Source: a virus
Strand: one strand, 5' to 3'
IMG/VR virus record: IMGVR_UViG_3300046507_000747
Span: 25,754-89,753 of that record
Length of the DNA: 64,000 nt
Numbering within the stretch: position 1 is the stretch's first letter; the number at the start of each line of letters is the position of its first letter. Below, piece by piece: positions 28,259 to 34,683 of the stretch. The notes below the pieces were generated by a model. That model did no database searches. It worked only from the letters and a program-made list of their open reading frames with translations, and was not told where the DNA came from. Position numbers and translations under genes: made by a program.

Positions 28259-30370
28259 TCAAGCGGCGGCGGGCAGCTCGCTGGTGAAACCCTGGTAGAA
28301 GGCGACGATGTCGGCCAGTGCCGTGGTGACTGGAGCGGGAGGGAGGGCCTTGACGATCTTTCGGCCGTAGGGCTTGCTGGCCAGACGCGGGTCCATGATC
28401 GCGACGACGCCGGAGTCGCCCACGCTGCGGATGAGGCGGCCGTACGCCTGCAGGAGCGTGAGGGTCATGGACGGCACAACCAGGTCGGCGAAGGCGTTGC
28501 CGCCCTGGCGCTCGATGGCCTCGCTGCGGGCCTTGTGGATGGGGTCGCTGGGGACGGCGAAGGGGAGCTTGTCGACGACGACGAGGCGGCAGGTGTTGCC
28601 GGGGAAGTCCATGCCGGTCATGAAGGAGCGCAGGCCGAACAGGACGGAGTGCTCGTCGGCGCGGAAGCGTTCGGCCATCTCCTTGACGCTCATGTCGCCG
28701 CCCTGGACGAAGGTGGCGTAGCCGTCGGCGCGCAGCTGGCCGCCGATGACGTTGTAGGCCTCGGTCATGGCCTTGCGGGAGGTGTAGAGGAGCAGAGCCC
28801 CTCCCCCGGCGGCCCGGACGAGTTCGAGGGTGGCGGCCGACACCCAGCTCTCCCACTCCCCCCGCGTGTCTCCTGCGGGGACCGGAACATCGGCGGCCGG
28901 GTGGAAGGTGAGGGCCTGGTGGCGGTAGTCGAAGGGGCTGCCGACGTCGAGGGTGGCGGCGGTGTCCTTCAGGCCGAGGCGGCGGGCGATGTAGTCGAAG
29001 CGGTGCGCTCCGGTGCCCGCGCTGAGGGTGGCCGACATCAGGACGGCCGGGTAGCGGCTCCACAGCTCCTCGCGGAGGTAGGAGCCGACGCCGATGGGCG
29101 CGGCCTTGATCATCCAGCGCTTGCCGACGGTCATGCGCTCGTTGCCGTACATCTCGGCCCAGCGGACCATCTCGTTGGGGTCAGCGAGCATGACGGCCTT
29201 GATGTTGGCCAGGAAGTTGCGGCCGACGGTGATGATCCGATTGCGGATCGCCTCCTCCTTCTCCTGGTCGGAGGAGTCGGCGATCTTCCGCTTGACGACG
29301 CGCTGCCGCAGCACTTCGAGCGCCATCCACAGCGCCACGAACCGGTCGGCGTGGTCGCCGATGAACTCAGCGTCGATGGCGCCGGTCTGGTCGTGCGCCA
29401 GCTGGTCGGCGATCGGCTGGGTCAGCGCGTCAATGGCGGTGATGACGTCCTGGTGGGCGTCGTAGCTCTTCCCGACGCGCTGCTCGTCCACGTCCTCGTG
29501 GACGGCGAGGAAACTCATGGCCTGGTCGGCCCACTTGAGCAGGCCACCCTGCTTGATGTCGAAACCGAGGTGGTTGGTGGCCTGGTCCTCCAGCTCGTGG
29601 GCCTCGTCGATGATCAGGCCGTCGTAGTCACCGAGGAGGGCGTGGATCCGGGGGCCTTCGCCGTCGTCTCCGGCGGTCTCCCGGGCGATCTTGGTGTCGG
29701 TGAGCAGGACGGCCAGGTTGGTCGCGACGATGTCGGCGCCCATGGCGGCGTCCTTGTGCCGCAGGCCGAAGCACTGCTCGGCGAAGCCGCACTTCGAGCG
29801 ACCGGGGCACTCGTCGCTGGAGGCGGACACCAGCGGCCACTCGCGGCGCTGATCGACTGGCGTGGTGACGTCGTCGCGGTCGCCGGTGTGGGAGAGCTGG
29901 CCGTTCTCGTCCGGCGCGATCTCCTCGCGCAGCGCCTGCAGGTTCTCGATCGCGGGGGTGTCGGCCATCTTGGCCAGGCAGATGAAGTTCCCGATGCCCT
30001 TGAGCGGAGCCCAGGTGAAGTCGATGCCGACCTCGGCCAGGACCTCCTCCAGCCAGGGGAGATCTTTCTTTGTGTACTGACTCAGGAGGGCGTTGGTCGC
30101 GGTGGCGACGACGAACCTCTTGCGGGGCACATCCGGACCCCCGGCGCGACTGGCGAGGATCGCGGCGACGAGGGCGGCGTAGGACTTGCCGGTGCCGGTG
30201 CCCGCCTCGGCGACCAGGTGCATGGGGTCGTGCTCAGTGAGGTCCTGGGTCAGCGTCAGCTCGGTGGCCTGCGCCAAGTGCTCCTGCTGCGGGCGGCGGC
30301 GGTAACCCGGGAGGTGCTTCGCGAACAGCTCTTGCAGGGACAAAAAGGTCGCAGGCGGAGCGGACGGCAT
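28259..30370 (-). CDS. DinG/XPD-type superfamily 2 helicase
   Basis: A 703-residue protein from the ATG at 30370, which has AAGGGG upstream; an ATG at 30403 overlaps the TGGCGGT leader motif and is less likely. Walker A AEAGTGTGKSYA, DEAH box IIDEAHELE, and a Cys set ECPGRSKCGFAEQCFG typical of the iron-sulfur domain. C-terminal motif VVPSMTLTLLQAYGRLIRS. It unwinds DNA or R-loops in recombination. It is the first gene of the long leftward replication run. Confidence 0.88.
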   Translation of the reverse strand: MPSAPPATFLSLQELFAKHLPGYRRRPQQEHLAQATELTLTQDLTEHDPMHLVAEAGTGTGKSYAALVAAILASRAGGPDVPRKRFVVATATNALLSQYTKKDLPWLEEVLAEVGIDFTWAPLKGIGNFICLAKMADTPAIENLQALREEIAPDENGQLSHTGDRDDVTTPVDQRREWPLVSASSDECPGRSKCGFAEQCFGLRHKDAAMGADIVATNLAVLLTDTKIARETAGDDGEGPRIHALLGDYDGLIIDEAHELEDQATNHLGFDIKQGGLLKWADQAMSFLAVHEDVDEQRVGKSYDAHQDVITAIDALTQPIADQLAHDQTGAIDAEFIGDHADRFVALWMALEVLRQRVVKRKIADSSDQEKEEAIRNRIITVGRNFLANIKAVMLADPNEMVRWAEMYGNERMTVGKRWMIKAAPIGVGSYLREELWSRYPAVLMSATLSAGTGAHRFDYIARRLGLKDTAATLDVGSPFDYRHQALTFHPAADVPVPAGDTRGEWESWVSAATLELVRAAGGGALLLYTSRKAMTEAYNVIGGQLRADGYATFVQGGDMSVKEMAERFRADEHSVLFGLRSFMTGMDFPGNTCRLVVVDKLPFAVPSDPIHKARSEAIERQGGNAFADLVVPSMTLTLLQAYGRLIRSVGDSGVVAIMDPRLASKPYGRKIVKALPPAPVTTALADIVAFYQGFTSELPAAA

Positions 30371-30764
30371 GGAGGGCCCCTTGAAGGTGGTGATGCTGCT
30401 CATGGCGGTGAGCAGGAAGGTCCTGGCGTGAGCGCGACGCTACACAGCGGCCCCGGGCGGAGTCGCGTTTTTGCTCCGGCGGATTTCCCGACAGGGGGTC
30501 AGCGGGGCGCGCCTGCAGGTTTCATGCGCAGGGTCCGTGCATCTGACACCACAGAAGTACTAGGGTGACCACGCGACCATCGTCGGTACCGCCCACCGAG
30601 GGTCGCGTCCGCTTCACCTGGCTCCAGAAACACCAACGGCCGCGTCGTCGGGATCCCCATCCCTCAGCGGCCGTCCGACAGAGACCTTGGCCGGTCATCT
30701 TCTGTCGGTGGGGCCAACAACCTGATATCCGAACAAGATCGCTACGACCATGGAGGTTGCTGGC
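30371..30764. other. Gene-free divergent region upstream of DinG
   Basis: About 390 bases. It holds GCGGCCGT/ACGGCCGC arms around 30637-30685 and a CTCCGGCGG-type stretch near 30475, but no clear -35/-10 pair on either strand. Promoters for DinG and for the rightward genes are presumed to lie here. No RNA gene seen. Confidence 0.35.
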
Positions 30765-31164: not shown

Positions 31165-32613
31165 GTGGTCGGGCCCTTGTCCCCAATGCCAATAGAGAGG
31201 GCACCTCCCGCCGTGCCACGCCAGTTTACGGGCCACGCACCCGTGCCGCACGCCAGCCAGGGCGAAAAACTCGCCAAAATTAGGGGAACCGCCGCCTCCG
31301 TCGGCGCGTCTCCACTTGATCTTCACCCTCAGCACTGGCTCCGCCGGTTCCCCGCACTCTCCCCGCGCATGACGGCCCTGATGGACCAGGGTGACGTCGG
31401 ACTGCGCTACGGAACGACGGACTCCACCTCGTCCAAGAGGGCCAAGTCCCAGCACCGGCACGCCGTCATGTCGGCCGCCGCCGCCGGTGCCGTCCGCAGC
31501 GGCTGGACCAGCGACCAGTTCGCCGAGGCCATGATCGACTGGCCTTCGCGTCCCGGCGGCTTCGTGCGCGAGATGAGCCAGCCGTCGGCCGAGCGGTACC
31601 TGGACAAGATCTGGGAGCGGGCCCGCCACCACGTCAGCTTCACCAGCGTCGTCGGCTCCCGCGAGGACGCCGTGATCGAACTGGTCGCGCTGCGGGACAC
31701 CATCGCCTCCGCCAACTGCTGGCGGGGCACGTCCGGTTCAACCGATCTCCGCGTTCTGATGGCCCACTGGCACGCCGCGAAGAAGGCCGGTGGCCGGATG
31801 TACACCCTGGCCCACCGTGAGGCCGCAGAGGGCGCCGGGTGCACCGCCAACACCGCGTACCGGGCCTCCAAGCGCCTGGTCTCCGGGGGCTGGCTGAAGC
31901 TGGTCGAGGTGGGTACCGCTGACAAGGGATCGACCTGGTACCTGAAGGACGGTTCTCAGCAACGACACACTCCCCGGGGGGCGCAGCCTGGGGGGGCACA
32001 GTCGAATGTATCGATGGTGAGAAACGGTGAGCTGGACGGTGCCGTCATCGAGCGCCTGATGAGCCTGGACGCCTTCGCCCACCGGGGCCTTGGAGCCTCT
32101 TCCCTGAAGATCCTGGCCGCCCTTCACCTGCGGGATCCCCAGTCCGTCGCGGAGCTGACCCAGACCGCCATGGCCAGCTCCGCGACCGTCTACCGCAAGC
32201 TCAAGGTGCTGACCGAGCACGGTCTGGTCGAGCGCCAGGACGGCCTGTGGGCGCTCACTGAGACGGCCGCTGAGGCCCTCGCAGGGGCCTGGGAGGGCTG
32301 GGACACCGTGGCGGCCGAGGTCGGCACGTACGGGACCGCCTGGCGCCGTCAGCAGGCCCACAAGGACCAGCGTGCGGTGTGGCACGGCATGGTCGTCCCC
32401 CGTATGCGCGAGCGCCGGATGCCCGACGTGGTTCCCGTACGGGGTGACGAGGTCGACCGGCGGTGCAGGTGGGGCAGCGAGGTCATCGACCGGGTGACCG
32501 GCGAGGTCATCGAGGACTTCGTCGTGGCGTCAGATGGCCGGTACCTGCTGCTCGTTGAGGACCTGGACTACGACGAGCTGGTCCGCCGCAACGCCCTCGC
32601 CTGCGCCGCCTGA
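31165..32613 (+). CDS. Winged-helix replication-initiator-like protein
   Basis: An open frame of 482 residues; the start is uncertain and could be inside (for example MPIERAPP at 31189). It has two winged-helix stretches: about residues 218-252 (LAHREAAEGAGCTANTAYRA) and about 312-365 (ASSLKILAALHLRDPQ, VAELTQTAMASSATVYRKLK). The N-terminal part with SAERYLDKIWERA recalls plasmid primase/Rep C-terminal domains. A 25-codon insertion (element A, 31953-32027) lies between the two HTH units. It is the only long rightward gene here besides ParA/ParB-like, which suits a plasmid-type initiator of replication, or a regulator. Confidence 0.55.
   Translation: MVGPLSPMPIERAPPAVPRQFTGHAPVPHASQGEKLAKIRGTAASVGASPLDLHPQHWLRRFPALSPRMTALMDQGDVGLRYGTTDSTSSKRAKSQHRHAVMSAAAAGAVRSGWTSDQFAEAMIDWPSRPGGFVREMSQPSAERYLDKIWERARHHVSFTSVVGSREDAVIELVALRDTIASANCWRGTSGSTDLRVLMAHWHAAKKAGGRMYTLAHREAAEGAGCTANTAYRASKRLVSGGWLKLVEVGTADKGSTWYLKDGSQQRHTPRGAQPGGAQSNVSMVRNGELDGAVIERLMSLDAFAHRGLGASSLKILAALHLRDPQSVAELTQTAMASSATVYRKLKVLTEHGLVERQDGLWALTETAAEALAGAWEGWDTVAAEVGTYGTAWRRQQAHKDQRAVWHGMVVPRMRERRMPDVVPVRGDEVDRRCRWGSEVIDRVTGEVIEDFVVASDGRYLLLVEDLDYDELVRRNALACAA
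31953..32023 (+). repeat. Element A: 71-bp element with terminal inverted repeats inside the initiator-like gene
   Basis: Left end TTCTCAGC (31953-31960), right end GGTGAGAA (32016-32023). ACGG lies on both sides (31949-31952, 32024-32027). The first 43 bases are identical to the reverse complement of 32986-33028. Element plus one ACGG copy is 75 bp, so its presence keeps the frame: LKDG is followed by a Gly/Gln/Ser-rich run and resumes with GELDGAV. Confidence 0.7.
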
Positions 32614-32670
32614 CTGCCCAGCAAACCTTCATGTAGCCGCATATTCGCTGATCAGATGGCATGCGTGGTC

Positions 32671-32700
32671 TTGCCAGCCTGTTTCCGGTCTGCTTAGTGT
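32671..32700 (+). promoter_or_regulatory. Leaderless-type promoter for the gene at 32707
   Basis: TTGCCA (32671-32676) and TAGTGT (32695-32700) are 18 bp apart. The ATG at 32707 is seven bases after the -10 box, at the expected start site, and no ribosome binding site is present. This is the arrangement of leaderless mRNA, common in Streptomyces. Confidence 0.6.
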
Positions 32701-32706
32701 GCCCCC

Positions 32707-32985
32707 ATGCAGAGACCGATCGCCGCCACTCGGTGCCTGTCCTATGACGACGCCACCGCAGTCCTTCCAGACATACGCCAGAACCTCAAGTACCGGGGTC
32801 TCACCCGTGATCAGTACGGCCTGTGCGCTGAAGTCGGCCGGTACGGACGAGGCTGGGCTGTCTATGTGGGATTCCAGCGCTCCGCTGACGTCCACGAGGC
32901 CACCCAAGCCATCACCGCCGACTACCCAGATCCCAAAGACAGGTCTCTGATCTGGGGTTTCTCAGCTTTGACACATTCGATATGA
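32707..32985 (+). CDS. 92-residue hypothetical protein
   Basis: Starts MQRPIAATRCLSYDDATAVL and contains VGRYGRGWAVYVGF. No family recognised. It is likely read from a leaderless promoter. The stop lies inside element B, so its last residues (SALTHSI) are partly element sequence. It lies between the initiator-like gene and the helicase and is read alone, like a moron. Confidence 0.65.
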   Translation: MQRPIAATRCLSYDDATAVLPDIRQNLKYRGLTRDQYGLCAEVGRYGRGWAVYVGFQRSADVHEATQAITADYPDPKDRSLIWGFSALTHSI

Positions 32986-33030
32986 CCCCCCAGGCTGCGC
33001 CCCCCGGGGAGTGTGTCGTTGCTGAGAAAC
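32957..33030 (-). repeat. Element B: inverted copy of element A between convergent genes
   Basis: GTTTCTCAGC (32957-32966) and GCTGAGAAAC (33021-33030) form perfect 10-base terminal inverted repeats. Inside, 32986-33028 is an exact reverse complement of 43 bases in element A, and ATTCGA is also shared. The elements are about 950 bp apart and in opposite orientation. Confidence 0.75.
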
Positions 33031-33079: not shown

Positions 33080-33120
33080 CAGCAGGGGCCCTCGGGAGGT
33101 CATCCAGAGGGCCCCTGCTG
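33080..33120. terminator. Strong hairpin after the helicase gene
   Basis: CAGCAGGGGCCCTC and GAGGGCCCCTGCTG pair perfectly over 14 bp. It is at the stop of the leftward helicase (33121) and would also stop the rightward unit. Confidence 0.8.
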
Positions 33121-34683
33121 CTACGCCACCAGGTAGCTCCGGCGCCGCTGTACGGCCCCCACGTGGCCTTCCGCGCCGGTGTCGCCCAGGAACCGGTCGG
33201 CCATCTCGTTGCGAGCCAGCATGGACTCCACGATCCCCTCCTCCACGGTGCCCTGCAGGACGAACGTGGTGCAGGTGATCGAGGCCGCCTGCGAGGTGAT
33301 CCGGTCGATCCGGCCGAGGCGCTGGGTGCGGGTCTCGTAGGTCAGCGCCGACTCGTACTCGACCAGGTAGGTGGCCTCGGGAAGGTTGATGCCGTCCTTG
33401 CCCGCGTCGCTGGTCAGGAAGACGCAGGGCTCGGGGTCGGCACGGAAGCCGGTGCGGGCCTGCTCGCGGTCGGCACCGGCCATGGAGCCGGTGTAGAGGT
33501 AGCTGCGGATGCCCTCCTTGCGCAGGGCCTCGGCGAGCAGCGGCAGGGCGGACGGCCCGAACTGGGAGAAGACCACGGCCTTGTCGCCCTGCCCGTGGAC
33601 AATGGATGACAGGTACTCGACAAGCTCCTCGGTCTTCCTCGACGGCAGCGACCGCAGGTACTCCACCCCATACGCCCGGACCAGCTCCATGGCCAGCTGA
33701 GACGTTCCGGCGGCGGCCGAGTGGGCGAGGGCCATCGGGTGCGCGGCGATCTGTCTCAGGGCCGCGTGCAGGCCGGGGACGGGCTGCTGGGGGTCGACCT
33801 GCAGGGACGCCACCTCGTCGTAGAGCCGCCCCTGCTCCCGGCCCATCTGCAGCGTGCGGAACTCCTCGATCCGCCGGGGGAACAGGTCGCGGACGTCCGG
33901 GTCCGTCTTGCGCTTGCGCCAGATGTGCGGCCGGGCCAGGGCGACGAACTGCTCGACGCCGTCGTCGGAGTAGCGCGGGCGGCCGTAGTCGTCCCGGCTC
34001 TTGATCACCGCGTCCTCGAACACCTTCACCGTCGGCATGGCGGCTGGGACGAGGAGCCGGAGCAGGTTGAAGCCGTCCTCGTAGGACCGGCTGATCGGAG
34101 TGGCCGTCAGGCCGACGACGCGCAGGTCCTTCTGGCACCGGCGCAGCTGGGTGAGGGCGTAGCCGTGGGCCTTGTAGAGCTGGCTGGAGCGGTTGCGCAG
34201 CTTGTCGGACATCTCGTCGTAGACCACGAGGACGCGGCGGCCGTCGGCCTGGGCGGCCAGCAGGGCCTGCAGGACGGGCCCCGGCTCGGGGACCCGGGTC
34301 CGCTTCCCCTGGGGAATGGAGAAGCGCGCCAGGTCGGCGCGGAGCGTCTCGTAGGTGCTGATCACGACGCGGGGCAGGCCGCGCTGCAGCGCCTTCATCC
34401 GGCCGGGGCCGTGGTGGACGGCGGCCGTCAGCGTGGTGAAGGCGCCGAAATCCTCGTGCCACTCGGTGAGCTTGTTCTGCTTGCACACGAGCAGGACGAG
34501 GTCCTCGGCGCCGTCCTGCTTGAGGAGCGCGGCGAGCGCCATGGCGATGACGGACTTGCCGATGCCGGTGTCGGCCACGAGCAGGCCGGAGCGCCGGGCG
34601 TAGGCGAACGCGGTGCCTTCTTGCTGGCACGGGTAGAGGCCGTGCGGGCTGTGGAAGACGGGCGGGGCGTCCATGCAGGTCAC
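33121..34683 (-). CDS. SNF2-type DNA helicase/translocase
   Basis: A 520-residue protein with motif I LLVADTGIGKSVIAMAL, motif II VVYDEMSDK about residue 176, motif III VGLTATPISRS, motif V SDAGKDGINLP and motif VI QRLGRIDRI about residue 458. It is a compact two-lobe SNF2 helicase like those in many phages. Role likely in replication, recombination or remodelling. It lies between fibre genes and the initiator-like region, and an AT-rich leader precedes it. The start may be the ATG at 34683 or 34674. Confidence 0.85.
   Translation of the reverse strand: MTCMDAPPVFHSPHGLYPCQQEGTAFAYARRSGLLVADTGIGKSVIAMALAALLKQDGAEDLVLLVCKQNKLTEWHEDFGAFTTLTAAVHHGPGRMKALQRGLPRVVISTYETLRADLARFSIPQGKRTRVPEPGPVLQALLAAQADGRRVLVVYDEMSDKLRNRSSQLYKAHGYALTQLRRCQKDLRVVGLTATPISRSYEDGFNLLRLLVPAAMPTVKVFEDAVIKSRDDYGRPRYSDDGVEQFVALARPHIWRKRKTDPDVRDLFPRRIEEFRTLQMGREQGRLYDEVASLQVDPQQPVPGLHAALRQIAAHPMALAHSAAAGTSQLAMELVRAYGVEYLRSLPSRKTEELVEYLSSIVHGQGDKAVVFSQFGPSALPLLAEALRKEGIRSYLYTGSMAGADREQARTGFRADPEPCVFLTSDAGKDGINLPEATYLVEYESALTYETRTQRLGRIDRITSQAASITCTTFVLQGTVEEGIVESMLARNEMADRFLGDTGAEGHVGAVQRRRSYLVA

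Follow-up and report, generated by a model that had tools for sequence, protein, structure and literature searches.

We found that a dyad element of about 71 bp lies in frame within rep, an initiator-like gene of a phage-plasmid, where selection at the DNA level preserves its sequence, and that an inverted second copy lies downstream of the gene. The reading we prefer, with moderate confidence, is that the two copies (A and B) are cis-acting dyads bound by the rep product as initiator, and that they form the replication origin or its initiator-binding part. Judging from the sequence comparisons described here, the element is probably the place where DNA copying begins.

The dyad element, its inverted copy, and their surroundings

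The DNA analysed (the window, 64,000 nucleotides in full) comes from an IMG/VR virus record of 89.7 kb. The closest relative is the circular, 154-kb Streptomyces plasmid pRLB1-9.1. Because this plasmid encodes ParA, ParB, a capsid protein, baseplate J, a DnaB-like helicase, and Pol III alpha, we regard the host replicon as a phage-plasmid. An IstB/DnaC-like ATPase and a Toprim protein are also encoded on pRLB1-9.1.

In the window, rep occupies 31213..32613 on the + strand and was recognised from its ORF, its homologues, and winged-helix Pfam matches. Its product of 466 aa contains two winged-helix domains. The start is probably GTG 31213; we prefer this to the shorter alternative at 31369, as in the PGAP annotation of the pRLB1-9.1 homologue, because residues N-terminal to the 31369 start are conserved in a 49%-identical homologue. 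The product is a probable replication initiator; the family evidence for this is indirect and includes a weak match to the PHROG family 'replication initiation protein' (E 7.8e-5). Searches of the PDB by sequence and by fold returned generic MarR winged helices only, and these are also the fold matches of the AlphaFold model. The Pfam search gave no match to an AEP domain in the phage-plasmid Rep. On either side of the gene, the opposite strand carries a helicase gene (28259-30403 and 33121-34683), inside the tail-gene region; from their pRLB1-9.1 homologues these were typed as DinG-like Helicase_C_2 and SNF2/DEAD-type.

Copy A (31953..32023, + strand) scores 80.1 bits with our covariance model, R1, and copy B (32957..33030, – strand, core element 32959-33028) scores 81.9 bits. 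In a repeat search of a 2-kb region, the arms at 31953-31998 and 32983-33028 were 98% complementary over 46 nt, making the A/B pair the top inverted repeat of that region, far beyond chance. The first 43 bases of these arms are identical in inverted order, so that both the coordinates and the identity reported in the preliminary description were reproduced. In the element, TTCTCA/TGAGAA forms the outer arms and GACACA/TGTGTC the inner arms, and the core, GGGGGCGCAGCCTGGGGGG, is G-rich and asymmetric. The ends of A are TTCTCAGC/GGTGAGAA, and those of B are GTTTCTCAGC/GCTGAGAAAC, which are perfect over 10 nt. ACGG borders A on both sides and A plus one ACGG amounts to 75 bp, in frame; TGGG borders B on both sides, a feature absent from the preliminary description. 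Our analysis thus agrees with that description in seeing a discrete unit of about 70 bp with inverted ends, placed in frame in an initiator-like gene and accompanied by an inverted second copy, and it confirms the ACGG borders with their 75-bp frame and the perfect ends of B.

The element in A encodes residues ~247-271 of Rep. These codons are predicted to specify a disordered or flexible linker between the two winged-helix domains: in the AlphaFold model, which is weak overall (mean pLDDT 53), pLDDT is below 50 at 247-293, between winged-helix regions at 173-244 and 295-348.

Between rep and B there is a small conserved ORF (32707..32985, + strand), recognised from the ORF and its relatives. 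Its 92-aa protein had no Pfam or PHROG match. As was claimed previously, this gene stops inside B, at 32985. The stop codon also lies inside B in pRLB1-9.1, and in L040, a phage-plasmid relative, the ORF stops before B. A promoter-like stretch, TTGCCA-N18-TAGTGT (32671-32707), ends about 6 nt before the ATG (32707) and is similar in four relatives (TTGYCA ... TAGYGT); from its sequence, the transcript of this ORF looks leaderless. Farther along, at 33080-33120, where rep and the small gene converge with the helicase gene, there is a strong GC-rich hairpin (18-nt inverted repeat, 94%). This hairpin is likely to be a bidirectional terminator that is separate from B.

Conservation and arrangement across relatives

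Homologues of rep were collected from viral contigs and large plasmids, and 24 of these were examined. None was found in the annotated phage collection, nor in GTDB contigs with strict pattern scans. Of the 24 genes examined, 22 have the element at the matching codons, including homologues whose protein identity is as low as about 30%. In every phage-plasmid relative with 63-84% protein identity, A occupies these codons and the position of B is likewise unchanged. In the homologues of about 30% identity, which are encoded on large Streptomyces/Kitasatospora plasmids, a dyad of about 68 bp occupies the same codon position; that of NBC_01281 (GTCTCAGAACTGGTCCACCCCCAAAGGGCCGCAGGCTGGGGGGGCCATGAGTGGTCCAGTTGTGAGAC) is one example. 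In a deeper clade that includes pFRL4 and pSCL3, the arms differ but surround a common core, GGGGGGCA, which is reversed (TGCCCCCC) in three members of this clade. When each whole gene was searched blindly for its best dyad, the element's position was returned in 18 of the 22 element-carrying genes; L023 and L027 have poor dyads.

Copy numbers were taken from the matches of R1 run over whole records. The NBC-type plasmids and pSTRVI02 each have exactly one match, always in rep, and the window clade has two (A and B). L042 has a single match, to an A that lies on the opposite strand (core flipped), and L040 and L041 also have a single match each, to B only. R1 does not reach the pFRL4-type elements, for which copy number comes from alignment only. 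An Rfam search with the element returned nothing above threshold.

B is found at the same place in six relatives, two of which are without A. As an additional inverted copy whose position is fixed, it is specific to the phage-plasmids. The preliminary description had recommended aligning homologues to see whether the 25 codons of the insertion are absent from some. This absence was borne out in L040 and L041, where rep (49% identity) is without these codons and B is still present downstream, but no clean empty site was seen, and we read the missing A as a loss because the plasmid outgroups carry the element. A is ancestral in rep. Since relatives with A only and with B only both exist, any general function that needs both copies is ruled out.

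The linker codons of pSTRVI02 contain five tandem copies of the arm motif GTCTCA, with 9-14 bp spacing, and one inverted copy. These six are the only occurrences in the 8.8-kb locus (array at L019 4460-4574). The arrangement fits repeated protein binding to duplex DNA and could be called iteron-like. In homologues on Rhodococcus plasmids, the same two winged-helix domains are preceded by a domain resembling an AEP primase (Pfam AEP-TOTE, with an E of about 1e-3 that does not reach the curated cut-off), and no dyad was found in the linker of these homologues. This Rep-like primase fusion (L058 3113-4915; L059 3161-4885) is conserved on conjugative Rhodococcus plasmids and is apparently unnamed.

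A separate observation concerns the giant plasmids of the pFRL4/pSCL3 type, in which a conserved protein of about 800-900 aa is encoded directly upstream of rep (L018, L021, L024, L026, L027, L028, L030, L031, and L033). It has a possible HTH and cysteine motifs, its gene overlaps rep by a few bases in several of these plasmids, and in the pFRL4-type plasmids the product matched no known family.

Selection on the DNA and pairing of the arms

Silent sites within the element are strongly constrained, showing that selection acts on the DNA itself. Fourfold third-base identity in one plasmid clade was 0.87 inside the element and 0.45 outside it (rank 2 of 392 windows); the corresponding values were 0.80 and 0.61 in the phage-plasmid clade and 0.80 and 0.57 in the pFRL4 clade. 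Covariation across the dyad in an alignment of 19 sequences was 0.254, compared with 0.106 after shuffling (0/500), a control that ignores relatedness, and with at most 0.065 in slid controls, which keep relatedness. Ten dyad pairs in this alignment changed on both sides. In the RNAalifold structure there is an additional apical hairpin, in which one pair clearly covaries (columns 29-35; GC 12, CG 7).

The two copies also resemble each other within genomes. The A/B core distance within genomes was 11 against a permutation mean of 28, with 4 of 120 permutations as low, a modest statistic drawn from five genomes. The window (1 difference) and L011 (0 differences) account for the similarity, which includes positions that alter the protein in A. 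Such concerted change fits gene conversion or shared recognition.

A candidate origin within the initiator-like gene

The preliminary description interpreted the element as a mobile-like insertion with target duplication. On a reading of this kind, a MITE-like element would recently have entered rep with a 4-bp duplication, and a second insertion would have given rise to B. The inverted ends are consistent with this, as are ACGG/ACGG at A and TGGG/TGGG at B in the window and pRLB1-9.1, the flipped core in L042, and the lack of the element from rep in L040 and L041. However, the element keeps the same codons in homologues of about 30% identity, its arms covary, and it is under purifying selection at the DNA level. 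The 4-bp repeats are confined to the window and pRLB1-9.1 (L009), are missing from 15 of the 19 related elements, and are best read as a coincidence or a lineage-specific accident; no clean empty sites were seen. A MITE would also require dispersed copies. The expected recurrence elsewhere in plasmids was not seen: whole-record searches of R1-type plasmids and phage records gave no dispersed copies, each R1-type plasmid having one element, at rep, and no transposase-linked copies were observed. The ancestral position, the lack of dispersed copies, and the unconserved flanking repeats largely refute mobile insertion, which we consider very improbable. An invertible segment was also proposed. 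On that reading the 32.0-33.0 kb stretch bounded by A and B would be turned over by a recombinase, which would switch the C-terminus of the initiator. Although the inverted repeats of 43 identical nucleotides, the concerted evolution of the A/B core, and a tyrosine recombinase encoded at another place in the record would suit such a switch, the flipped form would truncate the initiator, G000 contains no resolvase-family gene, and all seven records with both copies, a small sample, share one orientation. Most relatives are single-copy and B is retained where A is lost. With A-only and B-only relatives and no flipped A-B form among the records carrying both copies, segment inversion is ruled out as a general function, and we give it hardly any weight as an explanation here. 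Equally hard to credit is that the small-gene transcript runs through B and acts as antisense RNA to A in the rep mRNA. The 46 nt of complementarity and the conserved promoter-like stretch right before the small-gene ATG are in line with this, but the element is flipped in L042, and antisense RNA is not the conserved function because the large plasmids have A without B and L040 and L041 have B without A.

Two further readings of the element were weighed. One is that it works like an ssi, folded as a single strand or cruciform and recognised by a primase, with A serving one strand and B the other. RSF1010 provides a precedent, with ssiA and ssiB being related hairpin-forming primase sites, one per strand (PMC4434180), and this idea is consistent with the covarying apical hairpin, the DNA folds of B (z about -5), the location of A and B on opposite strands, and the AEP-primase-like domain in Rhodococcus. 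Against it, A-only plasmids and the B-only L040 and L041 have a site on one strand only, so the RSF1010 pattern of one conserved hairpin site per strand is not seen in most relatives. The CCCC/GGGG stem is broken in L040 and L041, the tandem arm motifs of pSTRVI02 resemble protein-binding repeats in duplex DNA, and the phage-plasmid Rep is without an AEP match. The sites described here, of about 70 bp, are also tied to a winged-helix protein and not to RepB'. We consider an ssi-like function unlikely. The other reading is that the element is a centromere (parS) or an autoregulatory operator of the replicon and not an origin. Many of the marks seen here would be expected of such sites too, ParA genes lie near rep in the large-plasmid relatives, and MarR-like winged helices usually bind operator dyads. 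In pRLB1-9.1, however, rep (26817) is a long way from both ParA (9488) and ParB (139588), the element is in the middle of the gene or downstream of it and not at a promoter, and a search upstream of rep found no half-sites. This seems to us rather improbable.

We return to the reading of A and B as initiator-binding sites. Here, dimers of Rep would bind the arms of A (and B), and the bound element would be the origin or contain its initiator-binding part. Rep at the element would then recruit the replicon's DnaC-like ATPase, DnaB helicase, and primase. B would give Rep another binding site, in the opposite orientation, that may suffice alone in L040 and L041, and the likeness of A and B would be kept through recognition by one Rep with occasional gene conversion. 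The tandem arms of pSTRVI02 and the primase-like fusions of Rhodococcus support a cis-acting site of this kind. Beside A we saw no strongly AT-rich region suited to unwinding; only mild dips in GC content (about 0.57 versus 0.68) occur, downstream of rep and at B. The GC skew of pRLB1-9.1 is monotonic and does not indicate an origin.

Several known systems resemble this arrangement. In lambda, the ori inverted repeats are located within gene O (PMC5043065; PMC6022878), so that the origin, with its inverted-repeat binding sites, is inside the coding sequence of its own initiator. As in the lambda oriO type, conserved repeats or a dyad are found here inside an initiator-like ORF, in linker codons, where Rep may bind. 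Lambda has four inverted-repeat iterons of about 18 bp and a 40-bp AT-rich region, whereas here there is one dyad of about 70 bp with a G-rich core and no clear AT-rich stretch; the initiator sequence is unrelated and there is an extra inverted copy outside the gene. The layout is also like that of the Streptomyces theta plasmid pWTY27, whose RepA binds both arms, but not the loop, of a 105-bp inverted repeat (PMC3583192). That repeat (IR2, an iteron) is in a non-coding region beside repAB, whereas the dyad described here is inside the rep ORF. Mycobacteriophages with extrachromosomal prophages are similarly phage-plasmids with an HTH RepA, and their origin is suspected to be within or just upstream of repA (PMC7157519); unlike the present case, no repeats were described there.

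A bolder proposal, which we regard as speculative and unlikely, is that actinobacterial phage-plasmids and giant linear plasmids share a new class of origin. Such an origin would be recognised as a single-strand hairpin or an extruded cruciform. Carried in frame within the initiator gene, it would be able to flip, to duplicate in inverted form, or to leave the gene, and it would be matched to its initiator by concerted evolution.

If A and B are indeed initiator-binding sites of an origin, a family of giant Streptomyces plasmids and phage-plasmids would gain both a candidate origin and a candidate initiator; in searchable open-access PMC text we found neither for this family. The origin-in-gene layout, best known in lambda, would extend to megaplasmids of hundreds of kilobases, and a minimal replicon of about 1.5-2 kb would follow that could be useful for vectors. 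The natural series of A only, A and B, B only, and flipped A would then raise the question of what role a second, inverted origin site has.
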